From assembly GCF_900109465.1 (NCBI RefSeq), contig NZ_FOAZ01000009.1:124001-188000 (forward strand): DNA of 64,000 nucleotides. Reading direction: 5' to 3'. This DNA is from Streptacidiphilus jiangxiensis (GTDB taxonomy: Bacteria; Actinomycetota; Actinomycetes; Streptomycetales; Streptomycetaceae). Shown here in pieces: positions 9,724 to 50,038 of this stretch. The first letter of the stretch is position 1. Each line of letters begins with the position of its first letter. The notes under the pieces are model-generated. The model worked only from the letters and a program-made list of their open reading frames with translations. It was not told the DNA's origin and ran no database searches. The translations under genes were made by a program, and so were the position numbers.

Positions 9724-10700
9724 TGCGCGCCACACTCGTCCAGGCCGGGGAGCGGCTGGTGGTGTCCTGCGCCGAGCGCTGGGTCGCCCGCGTGCTCGCC
9801 GAGGCGTGCCCGGATGCCTGGCACCCGGTCGGCAGCACCGTCCCGGACATCGAGGTCTTCGTCTCCACCGAGCGCGCCCCGATGGACCTGACCGGCGCCG
9901 AACCCCTCACCCGCGGCGCCTGGCTGCGGCGCGGCGACGTGCTGCTGACCAACGCCGCCGGCAGCGGCTTCGACCTGGGTGTGCGCGTCGAGGGCGACCG
10001 GCTGCGGGTGGAGGCCCGCTGGCGGCCGCCGCTGCGCGAGCACGCCGCCGCCTACGCGCTGCGCTCCCGCTTCCACCTGCTGGCCCGTGCCGCGCTGGTG
10101 CAGTACCCGGCGCTGTGGTGGTCCGGCCGCCGCGGCCGCGCGCCGCTGCACGCCGCCGCCGTCACCGTCGGCGACGCCACCTGCCTGCTGGCCGGGCCCG
10201 GCGGCATCGGCCGCTCCACCCTGCTGCTGCAGGCCGTCGCCGCCGGCGAGCACGCCTGCTCGGACAACCTCTGCGTCAGCGACGGCGTCTGGACCCACGG
10301 ACTGGTCGAGCCGGTCCGCGTCGAGGGCGGCGGCGGACGCCGGATGGCCTACGGTCGCAGCGAACGCGCACTGCCCGGCCGAGTCGACGCGCTGCGCCCG
10401 GACCGGCTGGTGGTGCTGCGCCGCTCCAACGCCGCCTGGCCGGTCGTGAACCCGCTGGAGCCGACCGCCGCCGCCCGCGCGATCACCGCCGGCACCTACA
10501 TGGCCGGTGAACTGCGCCGCTACTGGGCCTTCGCGGCGGCCCTCGCGCTCGGCACCGGCATCGGCCCGAGCCATCCGGAGGTCGCCGAGACCTCCGCCGA
10601 GCTCGCCGCCCGGCTGCCTGCCTACGAGATCGTCCTCGGCGCCGCCCCCAGCGCGGGCCTGGCCGAACTGCTCTCCCATGCCTCGGCGGTGATGCTGTGA
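9723..10700 (+). CDS. P-loop protein resembling HPr kinase/phosphorylase C-terminal domain
   Basis: 325 aa from the ATG that shares one base with the preceding stop (TGATG). The N-terminal ~140 residues are unlike anything I recognise. A P-loop GPGGIGRST lies at about 158-166, after the strand ATCLLA and before CSDNLCVSDG, an arrangement like the HprK-fold proteins found in peptide and glycan biosynthesis loci. There is no HPr-like substrate gene here. It may phosphorylate a sugar, lipid or protein of this pathway; the substrate is unknown. The next gene overlaps by 4 bp. Confidence 0.6.
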   Translation: MRATLVQAGERLVVSCAERWVARVLAEACPDAWHPVGSTVPDIEVFVSTERAPMDLTGAEPLTRGAWLRRGDVLLTNAAGSGFDLGVRVEGDRLRVEARWRPPLREHAAAYALRSRFHLLARAALVQYPALWWSGRRGRAPLHAAAVTVGDATCLLAGPGGIGRSTLLLQAVAAGEHACSDNLCVSDGVWTHGLVEPVRVEGGGGRRMAYGRSERALPGRVDALRPDRLVVLRRSNAAWPVVNPLEPTAAARAITAGTYMAGELRRYWAFAAALALGTGIGPSHPEVAETSAELAARLPAYEIVLGAAPSAGLAELLSHASAVML

Positions 10701-36542: not shown

Positions 36543-37316
36543 CTACGCGCCCAGGACACCTGAGCGCTGGTCCGCCTGCAGGACGAAGAACAGGAAGCAG
36601 AGGAAGCGTTCCTTGAAGTCGGGGAACAGGTCGCGGCCGGCAGGGTCGGCGTCCGGTTCGCTGATGACCGTGATGCGGAAGCCGGCTGCGGTGAAGGCGT
36701 CGGTCATCGCGTGCAGCGGCCGGTTCCAGAAGCGCAGTTGGGCGGTTTCGCCGCCCATCGTCCACTCCTCGATCCGGTCGTAGGTGGCGAAGTAGTCGGT
36801 CTTGTTCCCGGCCAGGTACTCGCTGCCGTGGACGGCGAAGGGGTGGTCGACGGACATGATCAGCCGGCCGCCGGGCTTGAGGACGCGTCGCACCTCGCTC
36901 AACGCGGGCCCCCAGTCCTCCAGGTAGTGGAACACCAGGGAGGCGACGACGTCGTCGAACGAGTCGTCGGGGTAGGGGAGGGGGCTCCCCAGGTCGGCCA
37001 CCCGGAGGTCGGCGTCCTCGCCGAGCCGACGCCGGGCCAGCTCCAGCATCCCGGCGCTCGCATCGAAGCCGCTGACCGTCGCGCCACGCTCACGCAGCGC
37101 CGCGAACAGCGGCCCGGAACCGCACCCGGCATCCAGGATCCGCCGCCCGGCCACGTCCCCGGCGAGCGCCAGCATCGCGGGACGCTCGTAGTAGGCGTTG
37201 ACGAGGCTGGTCTCGTTCCCGCTCGAGTACGCCTCGGCGATGCTGTCGTAGTCGTTGACCGTCGCCGTGGCGGCGCCCGTGTGGCTCTCGTGCGTCCGGT
37301 GATCGTCTGAAGTCAT
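36543..37316 (-). CDS. Class I SAM-dependent methyltransferase, third gene of the uxaC operon
   Basis: 257 aa, ATG at 37316 inside the stop of the fructuronate-reductase-like gene (ATGA), so it is translationally coupled to uronate genes. SAM motifs: RILDAGCGSGPLFAAL, GFDASAGML, SEVRRVLKPGGRLIMSVDHPF. This is the UbiE/Methyltransf_11 group. A methyltransferase is not part of known uronate breakdown. It might methylate a sugar acid such as a uronate carboxyl, or simply be hitchhiking. Confidence 0.83.
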   Translation of the reverse strand: MTSDDHRTHESHTGAATATVNDYDSIAEAYSSGNETSLVNAYYERPAMLALAGDVAGRRILDAGCGSGPLFAALRERGATVSGFDASAGMLELARRRLGEDADLRVADLGSPLPYPDDSFDDVVASLVFHYLEDWGPALSEVRRVLKPGGRLIMSVDHPFAVHGSEYLAGNKTDYFATYDRIEEWTMGGETAQLRFWNRPLHAMTDAFTAAGFRITVISEPDADPAGRDLFPDFKERFLCFLFFVLQADQRSGVLGA

Positions 37317-38749
37317 GGTGCGGGAGACGTGGTCCGCCGCCGGTTCGGTTCCTGGCCGAACCATCGCGCTGATCGGACCAGGCTCGCGGCCAGCTCCGCC
37401 ACGGCGGAGGCAAGCTCGGCGTCGGTTCCCAGCTCCGGAGCGAGGAAGGTGAGCACGGCCCGTGCCGCCTCCGGAAGCGGACCGGACGCGAGGGCCGGGT
37501 CCACGTTCGGGTCGCGGAGCGGCGCGCCGTGGCCGCGCAGGTGCAGGAGCCAGGCGGCGAGGACGGTGGTGGCGCCGGTCGGCAGGCGGCCCGCGGCGCG
37601 CTCGGCGCGGAGGGTCGGCAGGATGCGGACGGGGAGCTTCTGGGAGCCGTCCGCGGCGATCTGGGCGAGGGCGTGGCGCAGGCGGGGGTTGGCGAAGCGC
37701 GCCAGCAACCGTTCCTGGTAGGCCGCCAGTTCGGACGGCGGCAGCGTGAGGCGGGCGGAGGCCTCGCGCCACCACGCGAGCAGTGGGTCGCGGCACCCGG
37801 GATCGGCGACCGCCTCGGCGACGGTGGCGTGACCGCGCAGCGGGCCGAGGTAGGCGAGGAGCGAGTGGGCGCCGTTCAGGAGCCAGAGCTTGCGCTGCTC
37901 GTACGGGGTCACGTCGGGGACGAAGTGTGCTCCGGCGTCCTCCCAGCGCGGGCGCCCGGCCGGGAACGTGCCCGCGAGCACCCACTCGGTGAACGGCTCC
38001 GTCACCACCGGCGCCGCGTCGGCCCGGCCGGTCGCCTCGGCGACCTCGTCCAGGTCGGCCGGCTCCGTGGCGGGGGTGATCCGGTCGACCATCGTCGTCA
38101 CCCAGCAGGCGTGCCCTGCGGCCTCGGCCAACTCGGGCCGACCCGTGGCCGAGGCCAGCTCGGCGACCACGTGGGCCAGCGCCTCGCCGTTGCCCGGCAG
38201 GTTGTCGCACGGCACGACGGCGACGAGCCCGCCGCCCGCCCGCAGGCGCGCGGCGAGGCCGGACAGGACGCGCCCGGCGGCGGTGGTGACCGGACCGGTG
38301 CCGCTGCGGAGCGCGGCGATGTCGGCCGCGACGTCGGCGCGGTCGGTGTCGAGGCCGCCGTCGGGGCGGCGGGTCCAGCCGGCCTCGGTGACGGTGAGGG
38401 TGACCACCGCCAACGCGGGGTCGCGCCAGTGGCGCAGCCATGCCTCGTGGTCGCCGCCCGCGTGGGCGGCGCTGAGCGCACCCACCACCTCGTGCCGGTC
38501 CCCGTCCGGGCCCCGGGTCAGCAGGGTGTAAAGGCCCTGCTGGGCCGTCAGCTTCTCGGCGAGGCCCGCGCTGCGTCCGGTGAACGCCGCGATGCCCCAC
38601 TCCTCCGCGTCGCCGGCGTGCTCGGTGTACCAGGCCTGGTGGGCGCGGAAGAAGTTGCCGAGCCCGAGGTGCAGGATCCGGACGGGCGCGGCCGGGCGGC
38701 CGTCACCCGCCGACCGGGAGAGCGGGGGCAAGGAGTCGACGGCGGTCAC
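37313..38749 (-). CDS. uxuB: Mannitol dehydrogenase-family oxidoreductase, probable fructuronate reductase
   Basis: 478 aa with a GTG start (38749) overlapping the uxaC stop by 4 bp. The NAD site is near the N-terminus (ILHLGLGNFFRAHQAW). The family catalytic region is VVPCDNLPGNGEAL, and KLWLLNGAHSLLAYLG carries the polyol-dehydrogenase Lys/Asn/His. With uxaC next to it, reduction of D-fructuronate to D-mannonate (or tagaturonate to altronate) is the likely reaction. Mannitol or arabinitol oxidation is the alternative. Confidence 0.8.
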   Translation of the reverse strand: MTAVDSLPPLSRSAGDGRPAAPVRILHLGLGNFFRAHQAWYTEHAGDAEEWGIAAFTGRSAGLAEKLTAQQGLYTLLTRGPDGDRHEVVGALSAAHAGGDHEAWLRHWRDPALAVVTLTVTEAGWTRRPDGGLDTDRADVAADIAALRSGTGPVTTAAGRVLSGLAARLRAGGGLVAVVPCDNLPGNGEALAHVVAELASATGRPELAEAAGHACWVTTMVDRITPATEPADLDEVAEATGRADAAPVVTEPFTEWVLAGTFPAGRPRWEDAGAHFVPDVTPYEQRKLWLLNGAHSLLAYLGPLRGHATVAEAVADPGCRDPLLAWWREASARLTLPPSELAAYQERLLARFANPRLRHALAQIAADGSQKLPVRILPTLRAERAAGRLPTGATTVLAAWLLHLRGHGAPLRDPNVDPALASGPLPEAARAVLTFLAPELGTDAELASAVAELAASLVRSARWFGQEPNRRRTTSPAP

Positions 38750-40185
38750 AGCTTGAACGCCCTTCGCGGGTTGTCGGTCACCAGCTCGGCGGCCGTCTCG
38801 AACGCCTCGTCCTCCTCGAGCCGGTGCTCGGCGACCAGCTCCGCCAGCACCCCGCAGTCCAGGCGGCGGGACATGTCGTGGCGCGCCGGGATCGAGCAGA
38901 AGGCGCGGGTGTCGTCGACGAAGCCGGAGGTGCGGGTGAAGCCCGCCGTCTCCGTCACCGCGCGGCGGTAGCGGCGGATCGCGTCGGGGGAGTCGAGGAA
39001 CCACCACGGCGCGCCCGCGTAGACGGACGGGTAGAAGCCCGCCAGCGGCGCGATCTCGCGGGAGAAGACCGTCTCGTCCAGGGTGAACAGCACCAGCTGG
39101 AACCCGTCCGCGGTGCCGTAGCGCTCCAGCAGCGGCCGCAGCGCCGTCGTGAACTCCGCCCGCAGCGGGATGTCGTGGCCGGTGTCCGGGCCGAACCGCT
39201 CGAACGTCGGGGCGTGGTGGTTGCGGGCGACCGCGGGGTGGAGCGTCATCACCAGCCCGTCCTCGCACGACATCCGGGCCATCTCCAGCAGAAGGTGGCG
39301 GCGCAGCGCCGTGCACGCCCCGTCGCTGGCCTCGCCCGCCAGCGCCGCGACGAACAGGTGCGCGGCCTCGGCGGGTTCCAGGGGGTCGGTGCGGACGTCG
39401 GCGTGGCTGTGGTCGGCGGAGGTGGCGCCGTGCTCGACGAAGTAGCGGCGCCGGGACGCCAGTGCGTGCAGGAAGCCGTCGAGGGTGCTGGTGTCCGTGT
39501 CGGCGGCCTCGCCCAGTCGGGTGACGTCCTGCGCCCAACCGGGGCGGCCGGGTTCGAGGTAGCGGTCGGGGCGGAAGGTGGGCACGACCCGTCCCTGCCA
39601 GGTCGGGTCGGCGGCCAGCGCCCGGTGCGCGGCGAGGTCGTCGCAGGGGTCGTCGGTGGTCGCCAGCACCTCGATGCCGAAGCGGCGGAACAGCGCGCGC
39701 GGCCGATATTCCTCCCGCGTGAGGCGGTCGGCGACCTGGTCGTAGATCCGGTCGGCGCTGTCCGGGCCCGGCCGCTCGGTGACGCCGAAGATCTCCGCGA
39801 GCTCCGACTCCAGCCAGTACCGCACGGGCGTGCCGCGGTAGACCGCCCAGTGCTCGCACAGCCGCCGCCACACCGCCCGCGCCTGGTCCTCGGTCAGCGG
39901 ACCGGCGCCCACGCCGAGGTCGGCCAGCGGTACGCCGCTCGCGTGCAGCAGCCGGGTGACGTAGTGGTCGGGGGTGATCAGCAGCGCCGCCGGGTCGGCG
40001 AAGGGCTCGTCGTCCAGCAGCAGACGCGGGTCGACGTGCCCGTGCGGGGAGAGGATCGGCAGCTCCCGGACGCTCTCGTAGAGCCGCCGGGCGAGCGCGC
40101 GCACGCCCGGGTCCGGCGGCAGCAGCCGGTGCGGGTGCGGTCGCAGCGGGACGGGACGGGCGGGGGCGGCTGACAGGGCGGACAT
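38746..40185 (-). CDS. uxaC: Uronate isomerase
   Basis: 479 aa, near the family norm, from the ATG at 40185. The amidohydrolase-fold metal site is in ILSPHGHVDPRLLL (His48, His50). Other family blocks are VLATTDDPCDDLAAHRAL, HGATSADHSH and FVDDTRAFCSIPARHDMSRR. It converts D-glucuronate to D-fructuronate or D-galacturonate to D-tagaturonate. It is the first gene of a three-gene operon and divergent from larA across 99 bp holding an operator. Confidence 0.92.
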   Translation of the reverse strand: MSALSAAPARPVPLRPHPHRLLPPDPGVRALARRLYESVRELPILSPHGHVDPRLLLDDEPFADPAALLITPDHYVTRLLHASGVPLADLGVGAGPLTEDQARAVWRRLCEHWAVYRGTPVRYWLESELAEIFGVTERPGPDSADRIYDQVADRLTREEYRPRALFRRFGIEVLATTDDPCDDLAAHRALAADPTWQGRVVPTFRPDRYLEPGRPGWAQDVTRLGEAADTDTSTLDGFLHALASRRRYFVEHGATSADHSHADVRTDPLEPAEAAHLFVAALAGEASDGACTALRRHLLLEMARMSCEDGLVMTLHPAVARNHHAPTFERFGPDTGHDIPLRAEFTTALRPLLERYGTADGFQLVLFTLDETVFSREIAPLAGFYPSVYAGAPWWFLDSPDAIRRYRRAVTETAGFTRTSGFVDDTRAFCSIPARHDMSRRLDCGVLAELVAEHRLEEDEAFETAAELVTDNPRRAFKL

Positions 40186-40216
40186 GCTGCGGAGTCTCGA
40201 CCCGGCGCGCGGGCCT

Positions 40217-40230
40217 GGCAATCGGTTGCC
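40217..40230. promoter_or_regulatory. Putative LacI-type operator GGCAATCGGTTGCC
   Basis: Arms GGCAA/TTGCC around four bases, in the divergent uxaC-larA promoter region. The same arms and spacing recur at 44909 upstream of larE. An additional half-site AGTTGCCG lies at about 40234. Such short palindromes are typical of LacI-family operators, and a LacI gene is in the cluster. Confidence 0.6.
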
Positions 40231-40284
40231 GCCAGTTGCCGTAGCGCCTTGCGGCGGCACGGGGTCCGTGGTGCGCTGCTGCCC

Positions 40285-41568
40285 ATGAGCGTCGACACCC
40301 CGCCCCTGCAGCGTGCCGCCGTGCTCGGCGGTCCCGGCGTCCGGCTCGACGCGGAGCAGGTGCGCGCGTTCGTCGCCGAGCGGCTGCGCGCCGAGGACCT
40401 GGACGGCCGCAGCGTCTGCGTCGTCGTCCCCGACGGCACCCGCAGCTGCCCGCTGCCGCTGCTGCTCGACGCCGTCCACGGCGCCTTGCACGGACGGGTG
40501 AGCCGGCTGACGGTCCTGATCGCGCTCGGGACCCACGCCGCGATGGGCGAGCGCGAGCTCGCCGCGCACCTCGGCTACGACGAGGGCCGCCTCGCGGAGC
40601 GCTATCCCGGCACCACGGTGCTCAACCACGCCTGGTGGGACCCGGACACCTTCGCGAGCGTGGGGATGGTCGGCGCCGAGCGGGTCGCGGAGCTTTCCGG
40701 TGGGCTGCTGCGGCAGGAGGTCGACGTGCGTCTCAACCGCGCCGTCGTCGAGCACGACGTCGCGCTCGTCGTCGGTCCGGTCTTCCCGCACGAGGTGGTC
40801 GGCTTCTCCGGCGGCAACAAGTACTTCTTCCCCGGCGTCGCCGGGGCCGAGATCATCGACCTGTCCCACTGGCTCGGCGCGCTCATCACCAGTGCCGAGA
40901 TCATCGGCACCCGCGGCATCACACCCGTCCGCGCGCTCATCAACGAGGCCGCGCAGCTGATCCCGGCCCGCCGACTGGCCCTGTGCCTGGTCGTCGAGTC
41001 CGGCACGGGCGCCCTGCACGCCGCCGCCTACGGCACCCCCGAGGACGCCTGGGCAGCGGCGGCGGACGTCTCCGCGGAGACGCACGTGCGCTACCTGGAC
41101 GCGCCGGTGCGCCGCGTGCTGTCGGTGATGCCGGAGAAGTACCAGGACATCTGGACCGCCGCCAAGGGCTTCTACAAGCTGGAGCCCGTCGTCGCCGACG
41201 GCGGCGAGGTCATCCTCTACGCCCCTCACGTCACCCGGATCTCCGAGATGCACCCGGAGATCGAGGAGATCGGCTACCACTGCCGCGACTGGTTCACCGG
41301 CCAGTGGGACCGCTTCGAGCACCTGCACTGGGGCGTGCTGGCCCACTCCACCCACCTGCGCGGCGCCGGCACCTGGGATCCGCAGCACGGCGAGCGTTGC
41401 CGGGTCACGGTCACCCTGGCCACCGGCATCCCCGAGGACGTCGTGCGCGCCGCCAACCTCAACCACCTCGACCCGGCCGCGGTCGACCTCGACGCCTACC
41501 GAGCCGACCCCGACACCTTCGTGGTGCCGCAGGCCGGTGAGGTCCTCTACCGGCTGCGGAGCAGCTGA
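40285..41568 (+). CDS. larA: LarA-family nickel-pincer racemase/epimerase
   Basis: 427 aa from the ATG at 40285; no clear SD, so it may be near-leaderless. Key LarA residues are present at the same spacings as in Lactiplantibacillus LarA (H174, K184, H200): His169 in [11 protein letters not shown], Lys179 in GGNKYFFPG (the lysine bound to the pincer cofactor) and His195 in DLSHWLG. PDGTR and ALGTH lie in the N-terminal domain. LarA homologues move hydride at C2 of alpha-hydroxy acids: lactate, malate and, in some, gluconate. Here the partner genes handle uronates, so an aldonate 2-epimerase such as D-mannonate/D-gluconate is likelier than lactate racemase. Confidence 0.9.
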
Positions 41569-41570
41569 GG

Positions 41571-43097
<1,527 letters not shown>

Positions 43098-43107
43098 GCC
43101 CCGTCGC

Positions 43108-43791
43108 TCAGGCCTGCGGCGCCGCGATCTGGGCCGCGAGGTGGCCCGCGCCGTAGCCGTTGTCGATGTTGACCACCGCCACGCCGGGGGAGCAGGCGTT
43201 GAGCATCGACAGCAGCGGCGCGACCCCGCCGAACGCCGCCCCGTAGCCCACGGAGGTCGGGACGGCCACGACCGGCGCCGACACCAGCCCCGCCACGACG
43301 CTCGGCAGCGCCCCGTCCATCCCTGCCGCGACGACGAGCACGCGGGCCCGGCGCAGCAGGTCCAGTCGGGCCAGCACGCGGTGCAGGCCCGCGACGCCCA
43401 CGTCGACCACCAGCTCGGTGGCGCGGCCCAGGTGAAGCGCGGTCAGCTGTGCCTCGCGGGCGACGGGCAGGTCCGAGGTGCCCGCCGCCAGGACGACCAC
43501 GAGGCCGCCGGAGGGCTCCGGTGGCAGTGGCGGCCAGGCCAGCAGGCGGGCGTCGGTGTCGTGGCGGGCATCCGGCAGCTCGGCGAGCACGGCACGGGCG
43601 AGCTCGGGCGCCGCCCGGGTGAAGAGGGTCGGTGCGGCCCGTTCGGCGACGGCGGCGGCGATCGCGCGGACCTGGTCCGGCGTCTTGCCCTCGCAGTAGA
43701 CCGCCTCCGGATAGCCACGGCGGGCCGCCCGGTCGTGGTCGAGGTGGGCGAAGTCCTCCAGTGCTGCGGGCGGCGTCCAGCGGTCAGTCAC
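43108..43791 (-). CDS. larB: Nickel-pincer cofactor carboxylase/hydrolase LarB
   Basis: 227 aa with a GTG start at 43791, overlapping the larE stop by 8 bp. The C-terminal PurE-like domain is clear: VVVLAAGTSDLPVAREA, VVDVGVAGLHRVL, VVAAGMDGALPSVVAGL and PTSVGYGAAFGG. The early block YPEAVYCEGKTPDQV is the LarB signature. LarB carboxylates the pyridinium ring of nicotinic acid adenine dinucleotide and cleaves AMP, giving P2CMN, the first step of the cofactor. Convergent with larC. Confidence 0.95.
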   Translation of the reverse strand: MTDRWTPPAALEDFAHLDHDRAARRGYPEAVYCEGKTPDQVRAIAAAVAERAAPTLFTRAAPELARAVLAELPDARHDTDARLLAWPPLPPEPSGGLVVVLAAGTSDLPVAREAQLTALHLGRATELVVDVGVAGLHRVLARLDLLRRARVLVVAAGMDGALPSVVAGLVSAPVVAVPTSVGYGAAFGGVAPLLSMLNACSPGVAVVNIDNGYGAGHLAAQIAAPQA

Positions 43792-44797
43792 GGGTCGTCA
43801 CCTCTCCGGCGCGCGGTGCCTCGGTCGTCGGTACGTTGGTGCGCGCTGCCTGGACCGACGGTACCTCGGCCGCCCTTGCCTCGGCGCCCGCTGCCTGGGC
43901 CGACGGTGCCTGGGCCGCCCTCACCTCGGCGCGCGGCGTCTCGCCCGGCCGCACCTCGACCAGCGGCAGCGTGAACGCACCGGACTGGATGCCCGCCAGG
44001 TCCAGGGCGACCATCCGGAAACCTGCCCCGCGCACCGCCGCAAGCAACGGCTCGCGCAGCGGTCCCGCCGCGCGGGCGAGGTCCTCCACAGGCAGCTCGA
44101 CGCGGGCCACCTCGCCGTGGTGCCGCACCCGGCCGTCGCCGAAGCCGAGCGCACGCAAGGCGTGTTCGGCCTGCTCGACCTGGGCCAGCTTGGCCGGGGT
44201 GACCTCCTCGAAGTGCGGGATCCGCGAGGCCAGGCAGGGTGCGGCCGGCTTGTCCGCGCAGGGCAGCGCGAGAGCGCGGGCGATCCGTCGGACCTGCGCC
44301 TTGTCGATCCCCGCGTCCGCGAGGGGACGCAGCACCGCGTGCAGGGTCGCCGCGCGGCTGCCGGGCCGGTCCGGGCGCAGCACGTCGTCGGCGTTCTCGC
44401 CGTAGGCGACGGCGGCGAGACCGTGCGCGGCGGCCACGGACTCCGAGATCCGGGTGAACAGCTCGTTCTTGCAGTGGAAGCAGCGGTCCGGGCCGTTGGC
44501 CCGGTAGGCGGGCAGCTCGCCCTCGGCGGTCTCCACCTCCACCAGACGGGCGCCCAGGTGCGCGGCGACACGGTGCGCCCCGGCTCGCTCGTCCGAGGCC
44601 AGGCTCGGCGAGACACCGAGCACCGCCACGACCTTGTCGCGTCCGAGCGCGCGGAGCGCCAGGGCCAGCAGGACGGAGGAGTCCACACCGCCGGAGAAGG
44701 CCACCCCGAGCGGCGCGCACCCGCGCAGCAGCGCGGTCACCCGTTCCTCGGCCCGCGCCTCCGCACCGGACAGGGCGGCTGTCAGGGGGTCGGTCAC
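43784..44797 (-). CDS. larE: ATP-dependent sulfur transferase LarE
   Basis: 337 aa. PP-loop SGGVDSS at 35-41; GRDKVVAVLGVSPSLA follows. Cys106 and Cys109 form RCFHCK, and Cys180 and Cys188 lie in LPCADKPAAPCLASR. Cys188 probably matches the sacrificial cysteine of Lactiplantibacillus LarE. LarE adenylates the pincer carboxylates and installs sulfur. The last ~55 residues are an Ala-rich tail with a 15-residue repeat (AEVRAAQAPSAQAAG / AEARAAEVPSVQAAR) outside the family's normal fold. First gene of the larE-larB pair. Confidence 0.94.
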   Translation of the reverse strand: MTDPLTAALSGAEARAEERVTALLRGCAPLGVAFSGGVDSSVLLALALRALGRDKVVAVLGVSPSLASDERAGAHRVAAHLGARLVEVETAEGELPAYRANGPDRCFHCKNELFTRISESVAAAHGLAAVAYGENADDVLRPDRPGSRAATLHAVLRPLADAGIDKAQVRRIARALALPCADKPAAPCLASRIPHFEEVTPAKLAQVEQAEHALRALGFGDGRVRHHGEVARVELPVEDLARAAGPLREPLLAAVRGAGFRMVALDLAGIQSGAFTLPLVEVRPGETPRAEVRAAQAPSAQAAGAEARAAEVPSVQAARTNVPTTEAPRAGEVTTRD

Positions 44798-44908
44798 CTG
44801 CTACCTCCTCGACGCACAGGCACACGCGCACATGGGCCCACGCGCACACGCGCCCAAAGCACCGGATCGGCGCCTGTGCGCGACTCTAGGCCGCGCCGCC
44901 ACCGGGCC

Positions 44909-44922
44909 GGCAACCTGTTGCC
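44909..44922. promoter_or_regulatory. Putative LacI-type operator GGCAACCTGTTGCC upstream of larE
   Basis: Same GGCAA-N4-TTGCC pattern as at 40217, here extended by one C/G pair to 16 bp. It sits 112 bp before the larE start, between lacI and larE. A related half-site GTGTTGTC follows at about 44925. Confidence 0.6.
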
Positions 44923-44960
44923 GCGTGTTGTCGTGCGCTTGTGGCCGCTTCCGGCCGACG

Positions 44961-45971
44961 TCAGTCGGCGTGTCGGCGGCGTGCCGCCGTGGACGCGCGG
45001 ACGACGAGCTGTGTCGGCAGCGTCAGCACGGGCTGCGCACGCAGCGGTTCGCGGTCGAGCTGGCGGTGCAGCTCCAGGAACGCCTGCGAGCCGATGGCCC
45101 GCAACGGCGCGGCGACGGTGGTCAGCGGGGGTGTGCAGATGTCCGCGCCGAAGATGTTGTCGAAGCCCACCACGCTCGTCTGCCCGGGCACGTCGACCCC
45201 CGCCTCGGCGAGGCCGCGCAGCAGGCCGATCGCCAGCAGGTCGTTGTAGGCGACGACGGCGGTGGGCCGGGCGCGCAGCAACTCCGCCGTGGCGGCGAGC
45301 CCGCCCGAGACGGTGGGTGCGGGGGAGCCGACCCGGGTGACCTTCAGGCCGTGCTCCGGGCCGAGGTCCAGCAGCGCGCGCCAGCGCCGCCCGTCCGCCC
45401 AGGACGCGGCCGGGCCGGCGACGTAGGTGACCGCGTGGTGGCCCAGCTCCCGCAGGTGGGCGAGTGCGCTGCGGACCCCCGCCTCGGTGTCGGCCACGAC
45501 GCAGCGGCTGCCGGGGACGATCCGGTTCAGCACCACCAGGGGCCGCTGCTTGGCGATCGCCCGGATCGCCCGGTCCGAGCTCCGCGAGCTGGCCAGCACC
45601 ATCCCGTCGACGCCGGGCAGCAGCCGCTCCAGGGCGGTGCGCTCGTGCTCCTCCGACTCCTGTGCGTCGGCCAGCAGCATCGTGTACCCGGCGCGGGCCG
45701 CCGCCTCCTCGACGCCGCGGATGATGCCGAAGTGCACGGGATTGGTCACATCCGAGACGATCAGCCCGACAGCGCCCGTCCGTCCGCTCTGCCGCGCCCG
45801 CGTGAGCGGGTTCGCCCGGTAACCCAGCTCGCCGGCCGCCGCGTGCACCCGCGCGGCCGTCTCCGCGCCCACCCGCCCGGGCCGCGAGAACGCCCGCGAC
45901 ACCGTCGACGGCGCCACGCCCGCCAGCCGGGCCACGTCGTAGATGGTCGGTGCACGCCCTTCCTCGCTCAC
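44961..45971 (-). CDS. LacI-family transcriptional regulator of the uronate/lar cluster
   Basis: 336 aa. The HTH reads TIYDVARLAGVAPSTVSRAFS, with hinge RANPLTRARQSGRT. The periplasmic-binding-protein-like effector domain follows (GLIVSDVTNPVHFGIIRGVEEAA ... SVVGFDNIFGADICTPPLTTV). It is co-oriented with larE, 163 bp upstream of it. It probably binds the two GGCAA-N4-TTGCC sites and is released by a uronate or aldonate. The effector is inferred from context only. Confidence 0.92.
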   Translation of the reverse strand: MSEEGRAPTIYDVARLAGVAPSTVSRAFSRPGRVGAETAARVHAAAGELGYRANPLTRARQSGRTGAVGLIVSDVTNPVHFGIIRGVEEAAARAGYTMLLADAQESEEHERTALERLLPGVDGMVLASSRSSDRAIRAIAKQRPLVVLNRIVPGSRCVVADTEAGVRSALAHLRELGHHAVTYVAGPAASWADGRRWRALLDLGPEHGLKVTRVGSPAPTVSGGLAATAELLRARPTAVVAYNDLLAIGLLRGLAEAGVDVPGQTSVVGFDNIFGADICTPPLTTVAAPLRAIGSQAFLELHRQLDREPLRAQPVLTLPTQLVVRASTAARRRHAD

Positions 45972-47157: not shown

Positions 47158-48087
47158 GTGGCCCGCACGACCGAAGGCGATCTCGCCCCCCACGAGCTGC
47201 GGATCCTGGTGGCGGTCGCCGATTCCGGCGGCTTCTCGTCCGCCGCGCAGGCGCTGGGGCTGACCCAGTCCGCGGTCTCCCACTCGGTGCGCGGCAGCGA
47301 GGGCAAGATCGGCGTGGTGCTCTTCGAGCGCGGGCGCGGCGGGGCCCGTCCCACTCCGGCGGGGGAGAAGGCGGTGACGCACGCGCGCCGCGTCCTGCGG
47401 CTGCTGGACGTGCTCGCCGCCGAGGCGCGCGGGGCGGCCCGGGCAGCTGGGGCGGACGGCGTCGGGCCGGAGGCGGCGGGTCCGCTGCGGATCGCAGCGT
47501 TCCGCAGTGCGGCGCTGCACCTGCTGCCACCGGTGCTGCAGCGGCTGCGCGCCCGGTGTCCGGGGATCGAGCCGCAGGTGCGGATCGTGCGCGAGGTCGG
47601 GCGCGGGACGGCGGGCGAGGTGGCCGACGGACGGGCGGACATCGCCCTCGCGACCTTGGACGGCTCCACGCCGCTGCCGGCGGGGGTGGTGGCGCACGGG
47701 CTGCTGGAGGAGGAATACGCGCTGGTGCACCCGGCAGGTCGTGGCGACCCGCGATCCCTCCCGCTGGTCGACTGGGTCGAGAACTGCGGGTCGTACACGC
47801 GCGCCTGGTGGGCTGCGCAGGACTGGATCCCGAAGGCGACGGTCGAGGCCGAGGACGACGGAGCGGTGCTCTCGCTTGTGAGCAGTGGTCACGGAATGGC
47901 GATCATGCCCGCGCTCTCCCTGATGGGAGCACCGCACTCGGTCGAGATCACCGATCTCGGTCCGGAGCGGCCGACCCGCCGCATCGGATACGTCACCACC
48001 CCTGAGCTGGCAGGTTCTGCCGTCGTCCGGGCTCTGGTGCGAGAACTGCGGGCTGTTGGTACGCGGTCGACCGCTGTGGCGCGCTGA
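47158..48087 (+). CDS. LysR-family transcriptional regulator
   Basis: 309 aa with a GTG start (GAGGTGAG upstream). The N-terminal winged HTH reads LRILVAVADSGGFSSAAQALGLTQSAVSHSV, with ARPTPAGEKAV closing it. The effector domain follows (PLRIAAFRSAALHLLPPVLQRL). It probably controls the divergent oxidoreductase gene, as is usual for this arrangement. Confidence 0.92.
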   Translation: MARTTEGDLAPHELRILVAVADSGGFSSAAQALGLTQSAVSHSVRGSEGKIGVVLFERGRGGARPTPAGEKAVTHARRVLRLLDVLAAEARGAARAAGADGVGPEAAGPLRIAAFRSAALHLLPPVLQRLRARCPGIEPQVRIVREVGRGTAGEVADGRADIALATLDGSTPLPAGVVAHGLLEEEYALVHPAGRGDPRSLPLVDWVENCGSYTRAWWAAQDWIPKATVEAEDDGAVLSLVSSGHGMAIMPALSLMGAPHSVEITDLGPERPTRRIGYVTTPELAGSAVVRALVRELRAVGTRSTAVAR

Positions 48088-48280: not shown

Positions 48281-48296
48281 TTGCATGTGCATGCAA
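48281..48296. promoter_or_regulatory. Palindrome TTGCATG-TG-CATGCAA in the 316-bp region before the binding-protein gene
   Basis: 7-bp perfect arms, 108 bp before the start of the solute-binding protein at 48404. It is AT-richer than its surroundings. The rest of the 48088-48403 gap shows no gene or other clear element. An operator is the simplest reading; a GntR- or TetR-type site would fit the symmetry. Confidence 0.5.
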
Positions 48297-48403
48297 GCGG
48301 TATGGGAGGCTGCCACATCACGATCTTCGCGAGCCTGTGGACGCCCTGTGCCGGGGTGCCGCAGGGCGTCGCTGCACAGCCGACCAGGGAGATACGGAAC
48401 ACC

Positions 48404-50038
48404 ATGTCAGCAGTCAAGCGGCTGGCAGCACTGAGCTGCGTAGGCCTGATCGCCACCACCACCGGGTGCGGCTCCTCGAAGCAGGGTTCCTCCGTGGCGG
48501 GGGCTCCCAACGTGGTCATCAAGGTGGGCTCGGCCAACGCGTACTCCACCCTCGACCCGGCGCAGGCCTACGACATCGGCGCGTGGGACCTCTACTACAA
48601 CATCTACCAGGGTCTGATGACCTACCCGCCCGGCTCGAACACCCCGGCCGAGGACGCGGCCCAGAAGTGCGGCTACACCGACACGACCGACGAGACGTAC
48701 AAGTGCGTCCTGCGCCCGAACATGAAGTTCTCCAACGGTGACCCGCTGAACGCCGCCGCGGTGAAGTTCTCGATCGACCGCGTCATCGCGATCGCCGACG
48801 CCCAGGGCCCGTCCCCGATCCTGAGCTCCACCATCAAGTCGGTGGAGACCCAGGGCGACAGCACGGTCGTCTTCCACCTGAAGGTCCCGGACGCCACCAT
48901 GCCGGCCCGTCTCGCCTCCGGCGTCGCGTCGATCATCGACCCGAAGACGCTGCAGGCGAACAAGGAGGCGGCGACGGACGACACCAACGTCGTCGGCTCC
49001 GGCCGCTACATGATCGACTCGGTCAGCTTCACCGGCTCGGGCGCCAACAAGCAGCCCAGCGAGGTCAAGCTCTCGCTGAACCCCAACTACCAGGGTGCCG
49101 CCTCGCCCCCGCGCAACTCGGGCATCGACCTGAAGTACTACGCGGACCAGACCGGCACCAAGAAGGCGCTGGACAGCCAGGACGTCGACGCGGTCATCGC
49201 CGACCTCAGCGCCGACGACGTCGTCGCCATGCAGCAGAACCAGCAGCTCGGTACGGGCCTGCAGGTGGACTCGGGCCCGGGCGGTGGTATCCACATGCTG
49301 GCCCTGAACACCGTCGCCGGCCCCTTCACCAACCCGGCGCTGCGCAAGGCGGTGGCCGAGCTGGTCGACCGGAACGCGATCGTCTCCCAGGCGTTCAACC
49401 ACACCGTCAACCCGGCCTACACGATCCTCCCCGCGGGGATCACCGACGCGACCAACAGCTTCGCCAACACCTTCGGCCGGCAGGCCTGGACCGCCACCAA
49501 GGTCAAGGAGCAGCTGAAGAAGGCCGGGGTGACCCTCCCGGTCACCATCACCTACTCCTACTACAGCAGGGGTGACCAGGCCATCACCAAGGAAGCCCAG
49601 CTGCTCCAGCAGGAGCTGGAGCAGGACGGCCTGTTCAAGGTCTCGCTGAAGGACTACATGACGCACGGCAAGCTGGCGGCCGCGCTGCTGAACGTCAAGA
49701 AGCCCATCTTCGACATGTACTCGCTGACCTGGTACTCCGACTACCTCGACCCCGACGACTACGTGAACCCGCTGATCGGGAAGCGCAACATCGTCTTCAA
49801 CGGTTACGCCGTGTCGCAGAGCCTGATCGCCAAGGCCCTGGGGAAGAGCCCGCGCCTGCAGGCCCAGGGTGACTACACGACGATCCAGAACGACGTGGCC
49901 GACTACGTGCCGCTGATCCCGCTGTGGGAGAGCAGCCAGTTCGCCGCCACCCAGGCGGACGTCACCGGCGTGCCGCTGACGATGGACAGCTCGGGCAACC
50001 CGCGCTGGTGGATGATCGGCAAGAACGGCACCTCCTGA
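48404..50038 (+). CDS. Oligopeptide-type ABC transporter substrate-binding lipoprotein (SBP_bac_5)
   Basis: 544 aa from the ATG at 48404 (AGGGAG upstream). The lipobox is IATTTGCGSS, with Cys at about residue 22. Family blocks follow: STLDPAQAYDIGAWDLYYNIYQGL, VLRPNMKFSNGDPLNAAAVKFSIDRV and ALNTVAGPFTNPALRKAVAELVDR. It captures oligopeptides or similar solutes for a Dpp/Opp-type importer. No permease or ATPase gene is adjacent, so it is an orphan or shares a transporter encoded elsewhere. Codon use is strongly biased, suggesting high expression. A strong terminator follows. Confidence 0.9.
   Translation: MSAVKRLAALSCVGLIATTTGCGSSKQGSSVAGAPNVVIKVGSANAYSTLDPAQAYDIGAWDLYYNIYQGLMTYPPGSNTPAEDAAQKCGYTDTTDETYKCVLRPNMKFSNGDPLNAAAVKFSIDRVIAIADAQGPSPILSSTIKSVETQGDSTVVFHLKVPDATMPARLASGVASIIDPKTLQANKEAATDDTNVVGSGRYMIDSVSFTGSGANKQPSEVKLSLNPNYQGAASPPRNSGIDLKYYADQTGTKKALDSQDVDAVIADLSADDVVAMQQNQQLGTGLQVDSGPGGGIHMLALNTVAGPFTNPALRKAVAELVDRNAIVSQAFNHTVNPAYTILPAGITDATNSFANTFGRQAWTATKVKEQLKKAGVTLPVTITYSYYSRGDQAITKEAQLLQQELEQDGLFKVSLKDYMTHGKLAAALLNVKKPIFDMYSLTWYSDYLDPDDYVNPLIGKRNIVFNGYAVSQSLIAKALGKSPRLQAQGDYTTIQNDVADYVPLIPLWESSQFAATQADVTGVPLTMDSSGNPRWWMIGKNGTS

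Follow-up and report, generated by a model that had tools for sequence, protein, structure and literature searches.

How can glucuronate be degraded in a bacterium that appears to encode the route as far as D-mannonate and lacks the usual enzyme to continue from there? The question is raised by a gene cluster of Streptacidiphilus jiangxiensis, which lies on a 64,000-nt stretch of contig NZ_FOAZ01000009.1 (the window; all coordinates count from its first letter) in an actinomycete genome of 9.54 Mb that is 99.99% complete. The canonical pathway proceeds through UxaC, UxuB, UxuA, KdgK and KdgA. Here the first two steps look alike, whereas UxuA is absent from the genome and no dehydratase was recognised. 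The answer we consider quite likely is that these genes form a LacI-linked cluster for glucuronate catabolism, with a nickel-pincer-nucleotide (NPN) enzyme of the LarA superfamily in place of the mannonate dehydratase.

An earlier note on this DNA had named uxaC, a gene resembling fructuronate reductase, larA, larC, larB, larE and a lacI gene. All of them were found, with uxaC and uxuB facing larA and larC:

37313..38749, minus strand: uxuB-like fructuronate reductase (D-mannonate oxidoreductase) of the mannitol dehydrogenase family (PF01232/PF08125; 38% identical to E. coli UxuB)
38746..40185, minus strand: uxaC, glucuronate isomerase (NF002794, 547 bits against a cut-off of 387; PDB 2Q01 uronate isomerase, E 4.6e-122)
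40186..40284: divergent uxaC/larA intergenic region, 99 bp
40285..41568, plus strand: larA homologue, predicted NPN-dependent D-mannonate/D-gluconate 2-epimerase (GntE)
41571..43097, plus strand: larC, NPN nickel insertion, with LarC1 and LarC2 in one frame (TIGR00299, 201 bits, cut-off 90; NF052512, 135 bits, cut-off 50)
43108..43791, minus strand: larB, NPN cofactor biosynthesis (NF033503, 275 bits against a cut-off of 175)
43784..44797, minus strand: larE, sulfur transferase of NPN biosynthesis (TIGR00268, 267 bits against a cut-off of 150)
44961..45971, minus strand: LacI-family regulator, presumed repressor of the cluster (PF00356, PF13377)

The genes are tightly packed. uxaC and the uxuB-like gene overlap by 4 bp and larB and larE by 8 bp, larC follows larA after 2 bp, and the two divergent pairs are separated by 99 bp. 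The lacI gene lies 163 bp from larE on its upstream side. All these reading frames are intact, and the NPN cofactor set is complete, with LarB, LarC and LarE each above their curated NCBIfam cut-offs.

Read as a pathway, UxaC would isomerise D-glucuronate to D-fructuronate, which the UxuB-like reductase would convert to D-mannonate. LarB, LarE and LarC would make the NPN cofactor that charges LarA, and LarA would invert C2 of mannonate through a transient hydride transfer to give D-gluconate. A gluconokinase, encoded elsewhere in this genome and within the cluster in some relatives, would then deliver 6-phosphogluconate to the pentose phosphate pathway. The in vivo substrate, the nickel dependence, the effector of LacI and the uptake route are what we infer. 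Computation supports the sequence of glucuronate, fructuronate, mannonate and gluconate through the gene identities, the GntE-type residues of LarA, the missing UxuA, UxaA and ManD, the gluconokinase, the linkage in relatives and the operator. The earlier note had proposed both the epimerase role of LarA and the supply of gluconate to the pentose phosphate route. The first proposal gains computational support from GntE2-type similarity, signature residues and the linkage in relatives; the second would fit the gluconokinase of the genome and the in-cluster kinase and 6-phosphogluconate dehydrogenase (Gnd) of relatives.

What kind of enzyme is the LarA homologue? Its best match among solved structures is PDB 4NAR from Thermotoga maritima (223 bits), which corresponds to TM0440, the enzyme named GntE2. 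Five other solved matches, lactate or malate racemases or broad-range LarA proteins, reach at most 36.4 bits, the score of 2YJG, presumably the malate racemase Mar2. The catalytic and NPN-binding residues D72, R75, H108, H174, K184, H200 and K298 are retained in the window protein and in all 80 relatives compared, which are the best 80 of at least 503 confirmed matches, so that the sample leans towards close relatives. For LarAH groups 18–20 a signature of E followed by V or S in a loop, a W, and A or V has been described (PMC7583248). In the window protein it corresponds to E170, V171, W196/W290 and A293, with the helix labels of the paper assigned to alignment columns by inference; E, V and W recur in 80 of the 80 relatives and A in 79.

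Homologues automatically carry the name 'nickel-dependent lactate racemase', which would make LarA an ordinary lactate (or malate) racemase lying beside uronate genes by coincidence. This we consider extremely improbable. The lactate racemase model NF033504 yields 65.5 bits against a cut-off of 460 and the malate racemase model 92.5 against 500; the F175/F176 loop pair of lactate racemase is replaced by Glu/Val, and linkage to uxaC and uxuB recurs across many genera. With 4NAR as nearest solved relative and both the catalytic and the GntE signature residues kept, the window protein is therefore very unlikely to be a lactate racemase. Assignment to LarAH group 18, a putative hexonate epimerase, was also rejected (NF052594, 153.6 bits against a cut-off of 500). 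A tree of 35 proteins, which includes four Corynebacterium homologues and leaves out the C. glutamicum GntE1 sequence itself, places the window LarA together with those four in an actinobacterial clade (30 rows, 91/81) that joins 4NAR and one further relative (93/82). Since both forks fall under the starred level of the tool and the outgroup branches are long, this support is moderate. Judged by sequence, LarA is nearer to GntE2 than to lactate or malate racemases. A genome-wide search found it to be the single LarA-type match.

If LarA epimerises mannonate, are there other ways out of mannonate in this genome? The earlier note had seen no uxuA and called for a search of the whole genome for this gene and for a gluconate kinase, and both searches agree with its proposal. 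No match to the UxuA family (PF03786) was found genome-wide, in a search that gave matches in 5 of 14 control genomes. The UxaA family (PF04295), which also covers galactarate dehydratases, had no match in the genome either, and the best of four matches to ManD models reached 60.6 bits against a cut-off of 430. The LarA step may be the only mannonate outlet here. A gluconokinase above the TIGR01313 cut-off is present and adjoins a gluconate-permease-like gene; a FadR/GntR-like regulator is also next to it, the names of both neighbours being read from their translations alone.

Is the proximity of uxaC and larA more than chance? Up to 8 kb per side was fetched around larA in the 80 relatives (21 have a flank shorter than 7.9 kb), and each neighbour family was identified through a single representative and traced in the other loci by tblastn. 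UxaC was found near larA in 42 loci, a UxuB-like protein in 46 and both in 38. The loci with nearby uxaC span 18 named genera as well as metagenome-assembled genomes, which argues against chance. A divergent uxaC/larA pair within 600 bp occurs in 34 of the 80, a LacI like that of the window in 40, and at least one of larB, larC and larE in 36. Further recurrent neighbours are UidA (22), UidB-like (11), Gnd (16) and an FGGY kinase (16). Nine loci (L032, L042, L054, L065, L068, L076, L087, L091 and L097) combine UxaC, UxuB, LarA, kinase and Gnd, and six of these have UidA in addition. The representatives were identified as glucuronate isomerase, beta-glucuronidase and NADP-dependent 6-phosphogluconate dehydrogenase (737 bits, cut-off 413), together with a glucuronide-type transporter that stays under its cut-off (488 versus 528 bits). 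For the FGGY kinase the best model is gluconokinase, at 372 bits against a cut-off of 648, and among solved structures it comes closest to a gluconate kinase, with 281 bits where the runner-up has 158. None of the 80 loci gave a match to E. coli UxuA at E 1e-10. The order of genes varies: uxaC, uidA, the reductase gene and larA share one strand in one genome (G302), and in another (G347), which lacks UxaC, larA has as immediate opposite-strand neighbours a uxuB-like gene and a gene for a TIGR01313 gluconokinase that scores 178 bits.

This neighbourhood also bears on the possibility that LarA acts on another hexonate or aldarate, be it glucarate/mannarate or altronate/allonate formed from galacturonate by UxaC and the reductase. 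A glucarate-type substrate was suggested for group 19 by the discoverers of GntE1 (PMC7583248), and UxaC accepts galacturonate too (PMC6353982). We nevertheless regard such a substrate as quite improbable, as the reductase is closer to E. coli UxuB than to UxaB, beta-glucuronidase accompanies larA in those 22 loci, and the only fitting place for Gnd and a gluconokinase-like kinase is after gluconate or 6-phosphogluconate. Moreover, no uronate dehydrogenase is among the named recurrent neighbours, the genome itself not having been searched for one.

The association extends to whole genomes, for which Fisher tests serve as a guide only, because they treat related genomes as independent. UxaC is present in 70 of 79 larA-bearing genomes (42 near larA plus 28 of the 37 others) versus 29 of 396 in a sample of the phylum. 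We then compared 44 UxaC-containing genomes with this LarA (41 genomes behind the loci plus G000, G013 and G302; L044 was left out) with 26 UxaC-containing genomes without it. UxuA above 400 bits occurs in 0/44 versus 6/26, any UxuA-family match in 3/44 versus 7/26, and either dehydratase family in 10/44 versus 16/26. Seven larA genomes without nearby uxaC gave one weak UxuA-family match (93.6 bits). Conversely, a TIGR01313 gluconokinase above cut-off is found in 26/44 versus 4/26. When linked FGGY kinases are included, a gluconokinase-type gene is present in 30 of the 41 uxaC-linked larA genomes and was not seen in 11. With up to 43 candidates scored per genome, misses are possible in these TIGR01313 counts.

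A common regulatory element points in the same direction. From palindromes in the uxaC-larA gaps we derived the operator consensus TGGCAAYCGRTTGCCA and then scanned for it. With up to two mismatches, 38 sites were found in 22 of the 80 loci versus 2 in reversed sequences. The nearest gene start is that of uxaC for 17 sites, lacI for 11, uidA for 3 and gnd for 2. Because the consensus was read from the uxaC-larA gaps, the count there is partly so by construction; this holds less for the sites at lacI, uidA, gnd and the larE gene of the window. The window carries two sites at the cluster:

40216..40231: LacI-type palindromic operator TGGCAATCGGTTGCCG, one mismatch to TGGCAAYCGRTTGCCA, in the uxaC-larA gap
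44908..44923: weaker operator-like palindrome CGGCAACCTGTTGCCG, three mismatches to the consensus, with self-complementary 7-bp arms, upstream of larE-larB

The remaining two hits with three mismatches fall away from the cluster, at 9819 and 55866. Altogether the window has four hits at up to three mismatches versus 0.47 expected, and none of 100 shuffles reached four. The LacI protein of the window probably binds this motif.

How does the proposed route relate to known systems? The idea of the pathway is not new. A conversion of mannonate to gluconate was proposed for T. maritima by Rodionova et al. in 2012, as cited in later work (PMC6978723, PMC3750489), and several LarA homologues have been shown to catalyse this reaction in vitro. 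In 2020 mannonate-gluconate epimerisation was reported for C. glutamicum GntE1 (KM 120 mM) and T. maritima GntE2 (KM 17 mM) (PMC7583248), and in 2024 for two further homologues (PMC11770544). In T. maritima, the operon aldH-pelB-gnd-uxaRED-gntEK is controlled by UxaR, next to a separate kdgA-kdgK-uxuB-uxuA operon (PMC3750489). GntE2 (LarAH20) is similar as a LarA-superfamily epimerase whose operon also encodes a reductase, a gluconokinase and a 6-phosphogluconate dehydrogenase. Thermotoga, however, has UxuA, a pectin- or galacturonate-fed pathway and a UxaR of the GntR type (PMC3750489), whereas the present genome contains neither UxuA nor a member of the UxaA family, the linked regulator is of the LacI type, and relatives carry beta-glucuronidase. 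GntE1 (LarAH19) is likewise actinobacterial, its group is described with a uronic-acid gene context, and GntE1 itself epimerises mannonate in vitro (PMC7583248); four other Corynebacterium homologues fall into the window clade. What is new here is the actinobacterial form of the pathway, glucuronide-fed in relatives and LacI-linked, in a genome with no other recognised mannonate outlet. No description of an actinobacterial pathway appeared in the titles and opening abstract lines of the literature searched, a partial coverage with subscription papers mostly outside it.

Several observations weigh against the route through free mannonate and gluconate. The KM of 120 mM leads the discoverers of GntE1 to doubt mannonate as its native substrate; they propose another one such as glucarate for this group, despite its uronic-acid gene context (PMC7583248). 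The reductase scores 229 bits with the fructuronate reductase model NF011611 (cut-off 603) and 248 with a D-arabinitol 4-dehydrogenase model (cut-off 600). The step to fructuronate proposed in the earlier note stands on a UxaC above its cut-off, and for the following step to mannonate the curated models leave the name of the reductase unsettled. Among three E. coli proteins UxuB is the nearest (38%, 232 bits), ahead of YdfI (218) and UxaB (122), and it is also the best match for 37 of the uxuB-like genes in the 46 related loci, YdfI being so for 9; since UxuB is nearest, a UxuB-like function is presumed. In the window there is neither a glucuronidase nor a glucuronide transporter resembling those of relatives.

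Nor is the linkage universal. No uxaC is present in the fetched stretch of 38 of the 80 larA loci, 9 of these 38 having a shortened flank, and 9 of the 37 genomes behind loci without nearby uxaC have none anywhere. Within roughly 9 kb of the larA of Corynebacterium doosanense there is neither a uxaC nor a uxuB match. In Kribbella-type loci without nearby uxaC, the common neighbours look like lineage synteny. For the 28 genomes with larA-distant UxaC, 30 UxaC loci were compared, a set outside which three further matches lie: four are more than 60% identical to that of the window and the rest 49–56%; the latter may belong to another pathway.

The dehydratases do not sort the genomes cleanly either. 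Of the 41 uxaC-linked larA genomes, three have weak UxuA-family and nine UxaA-family matches, and both families are missing in 10 of the 26 UxaC-containing genomes without this LarA. A clean split by UxuA is therefore only partly true, and a missing UxuA, taken by itself, carries little weight. One of these ten genomes, G121, does encode a LarA protein, which is placed with 4NAR in the tree. Finally, the window genome holds below-cut-off enolase-superfamily matches and, elsewhere, a protein of the KDPG/KHG-aldolase family (135.6 bits). Together they make an unrecognised dehydratase route possible, and the claim that any 2-keto-3-deoxygluconate (KDG) route is absent was dropped in view of the aldolase-family protein.

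Might phosphorylation precede epimerisation? In what is the main rival explanation, a kinase acts first on mannonate and LarA epimerises 6-phospho-D-mannonate to 6-phosphogluconate. Such an order is reported for extracts of Lactobacillus suebicus, which turn mannonate into 6-phosphomannonate and 6-phosphogluconate, not gluconate (PMC6978723). It would also be in line with the high KM for mannonate of both GntE1 (120 mM) and GntE2 (17 mM) (PMC7583248), and the linked FGGY kinase, with its 372 bits against the gluconokinase cut-off of 648, might act on mannonate. The window cluster, on the other hand, contains no kinase, and the TIGR01313 gluconokinase of the genome sits beside a gluconate-permease-like gene. 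In G347 larA has a TIGR01313 gluconokinase gene as its neighbour, and such kinases are, as counted above, more frequent among genomes that have this LarA. GntE2, which has identical E, W, T and K residues, works on free mannonate. We therefore consider the kinase-first order unlikely. A combined claim, namely that 6-phospho-D-mannonate is the native substrate, that the family is the L. suebicus-type 6-phosphomannonate 2-epimerase and that growth on glucuronate and glucuronides is wholly nickel-dependent, is a long shot. The L. suebicus route resembles the epimerisation of free mannonate favoured here in connecting the isomerase route to 6-phosphogluconate and differs in that phosphorylation comes before epimerisation; its epimerase gene is given as unidentified in that account (PMC6978723).

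With the mannonate-gluconate epimerase as the preferred reading, these observations touch on wider questions. For the native substrate of the GntE1 group, the neighbours, the missing dehydratases and the common operator motif point to mannonate and gluconate. The reading predicts that some aerobic actinomycetes would need nickel for life on glucuronides, and it suggests that 'nickel-dependent lactate racemase' is a misleading automatic name for many of these actinomycete proteins. For a related hybrid route, redox neutrality as far as ribulose-5-phosphate has been described (PMC6978723), a feature of possible interest for metabolic engineering.

Among the related loci some variants were observed. 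Three Streptomyces loci (L034, L035 and L037 from S. niger, S. violens and S. ochraceiscleroticus) encode a LarA of 80–81% identity and lar cofactor genes in genomes without UxaC. Neighbours in L035 are LutB-like lactate-oxidation proteins, an IclR regulator and a sugar-transporter-like protein. The LarA substrate may differ in these species. Five other loci (L105 and L108 from Mycobacterium sp. GA-1199 and IS-1590, L041, L072 and the locus of G347) have a uxuB-like gene adjoining or close to larA and no UxaC genome-wide; these bacteria may employ the reductase and the epimerase in the absence of UxaC, for example on imported fructuronate. In L109, L110, L111, L092 and L098, larA is accompanied by genes for an oxidoreductase of the Gfo/Idh/MocA type and for a xylose-isomerase-like (AP_endonuc_2) protein. 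An alternative reductase in L109–L111 was considered and dropped: in L109 the fetched stretch breaks off within a uxuB match that follows uxaC, and in L110 and L111 it already stops within uxaC.

At the borders of the cluster, a gene for an S-adenosylmethionine (SAM)-dependent methyltransferase (36543–37316) shares 4 bp with the end of uxuB and may therefore be co-transcribed with it. The earlier note had let the cluster begin at 36543, which is too early: the methyltransferase was rejected as a member of the system, having no match at E 1e-20 in any of the 80 related loci. Past the lacI side lie a LysR regulator (47158–48087) and an SBP_bac_5 family-5 ABC solute-binding protein (48281–50038). 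Within LarC, residues 237–345 (window 42279–42602) form a linker of 109 residues between LarC1 and LarC2 that is made up almost entirely of Glu, Pro and Ser (53 E, 35 P, 20 S) and encoded by a tandem repeat with 17 copies of an 18-bp unit.

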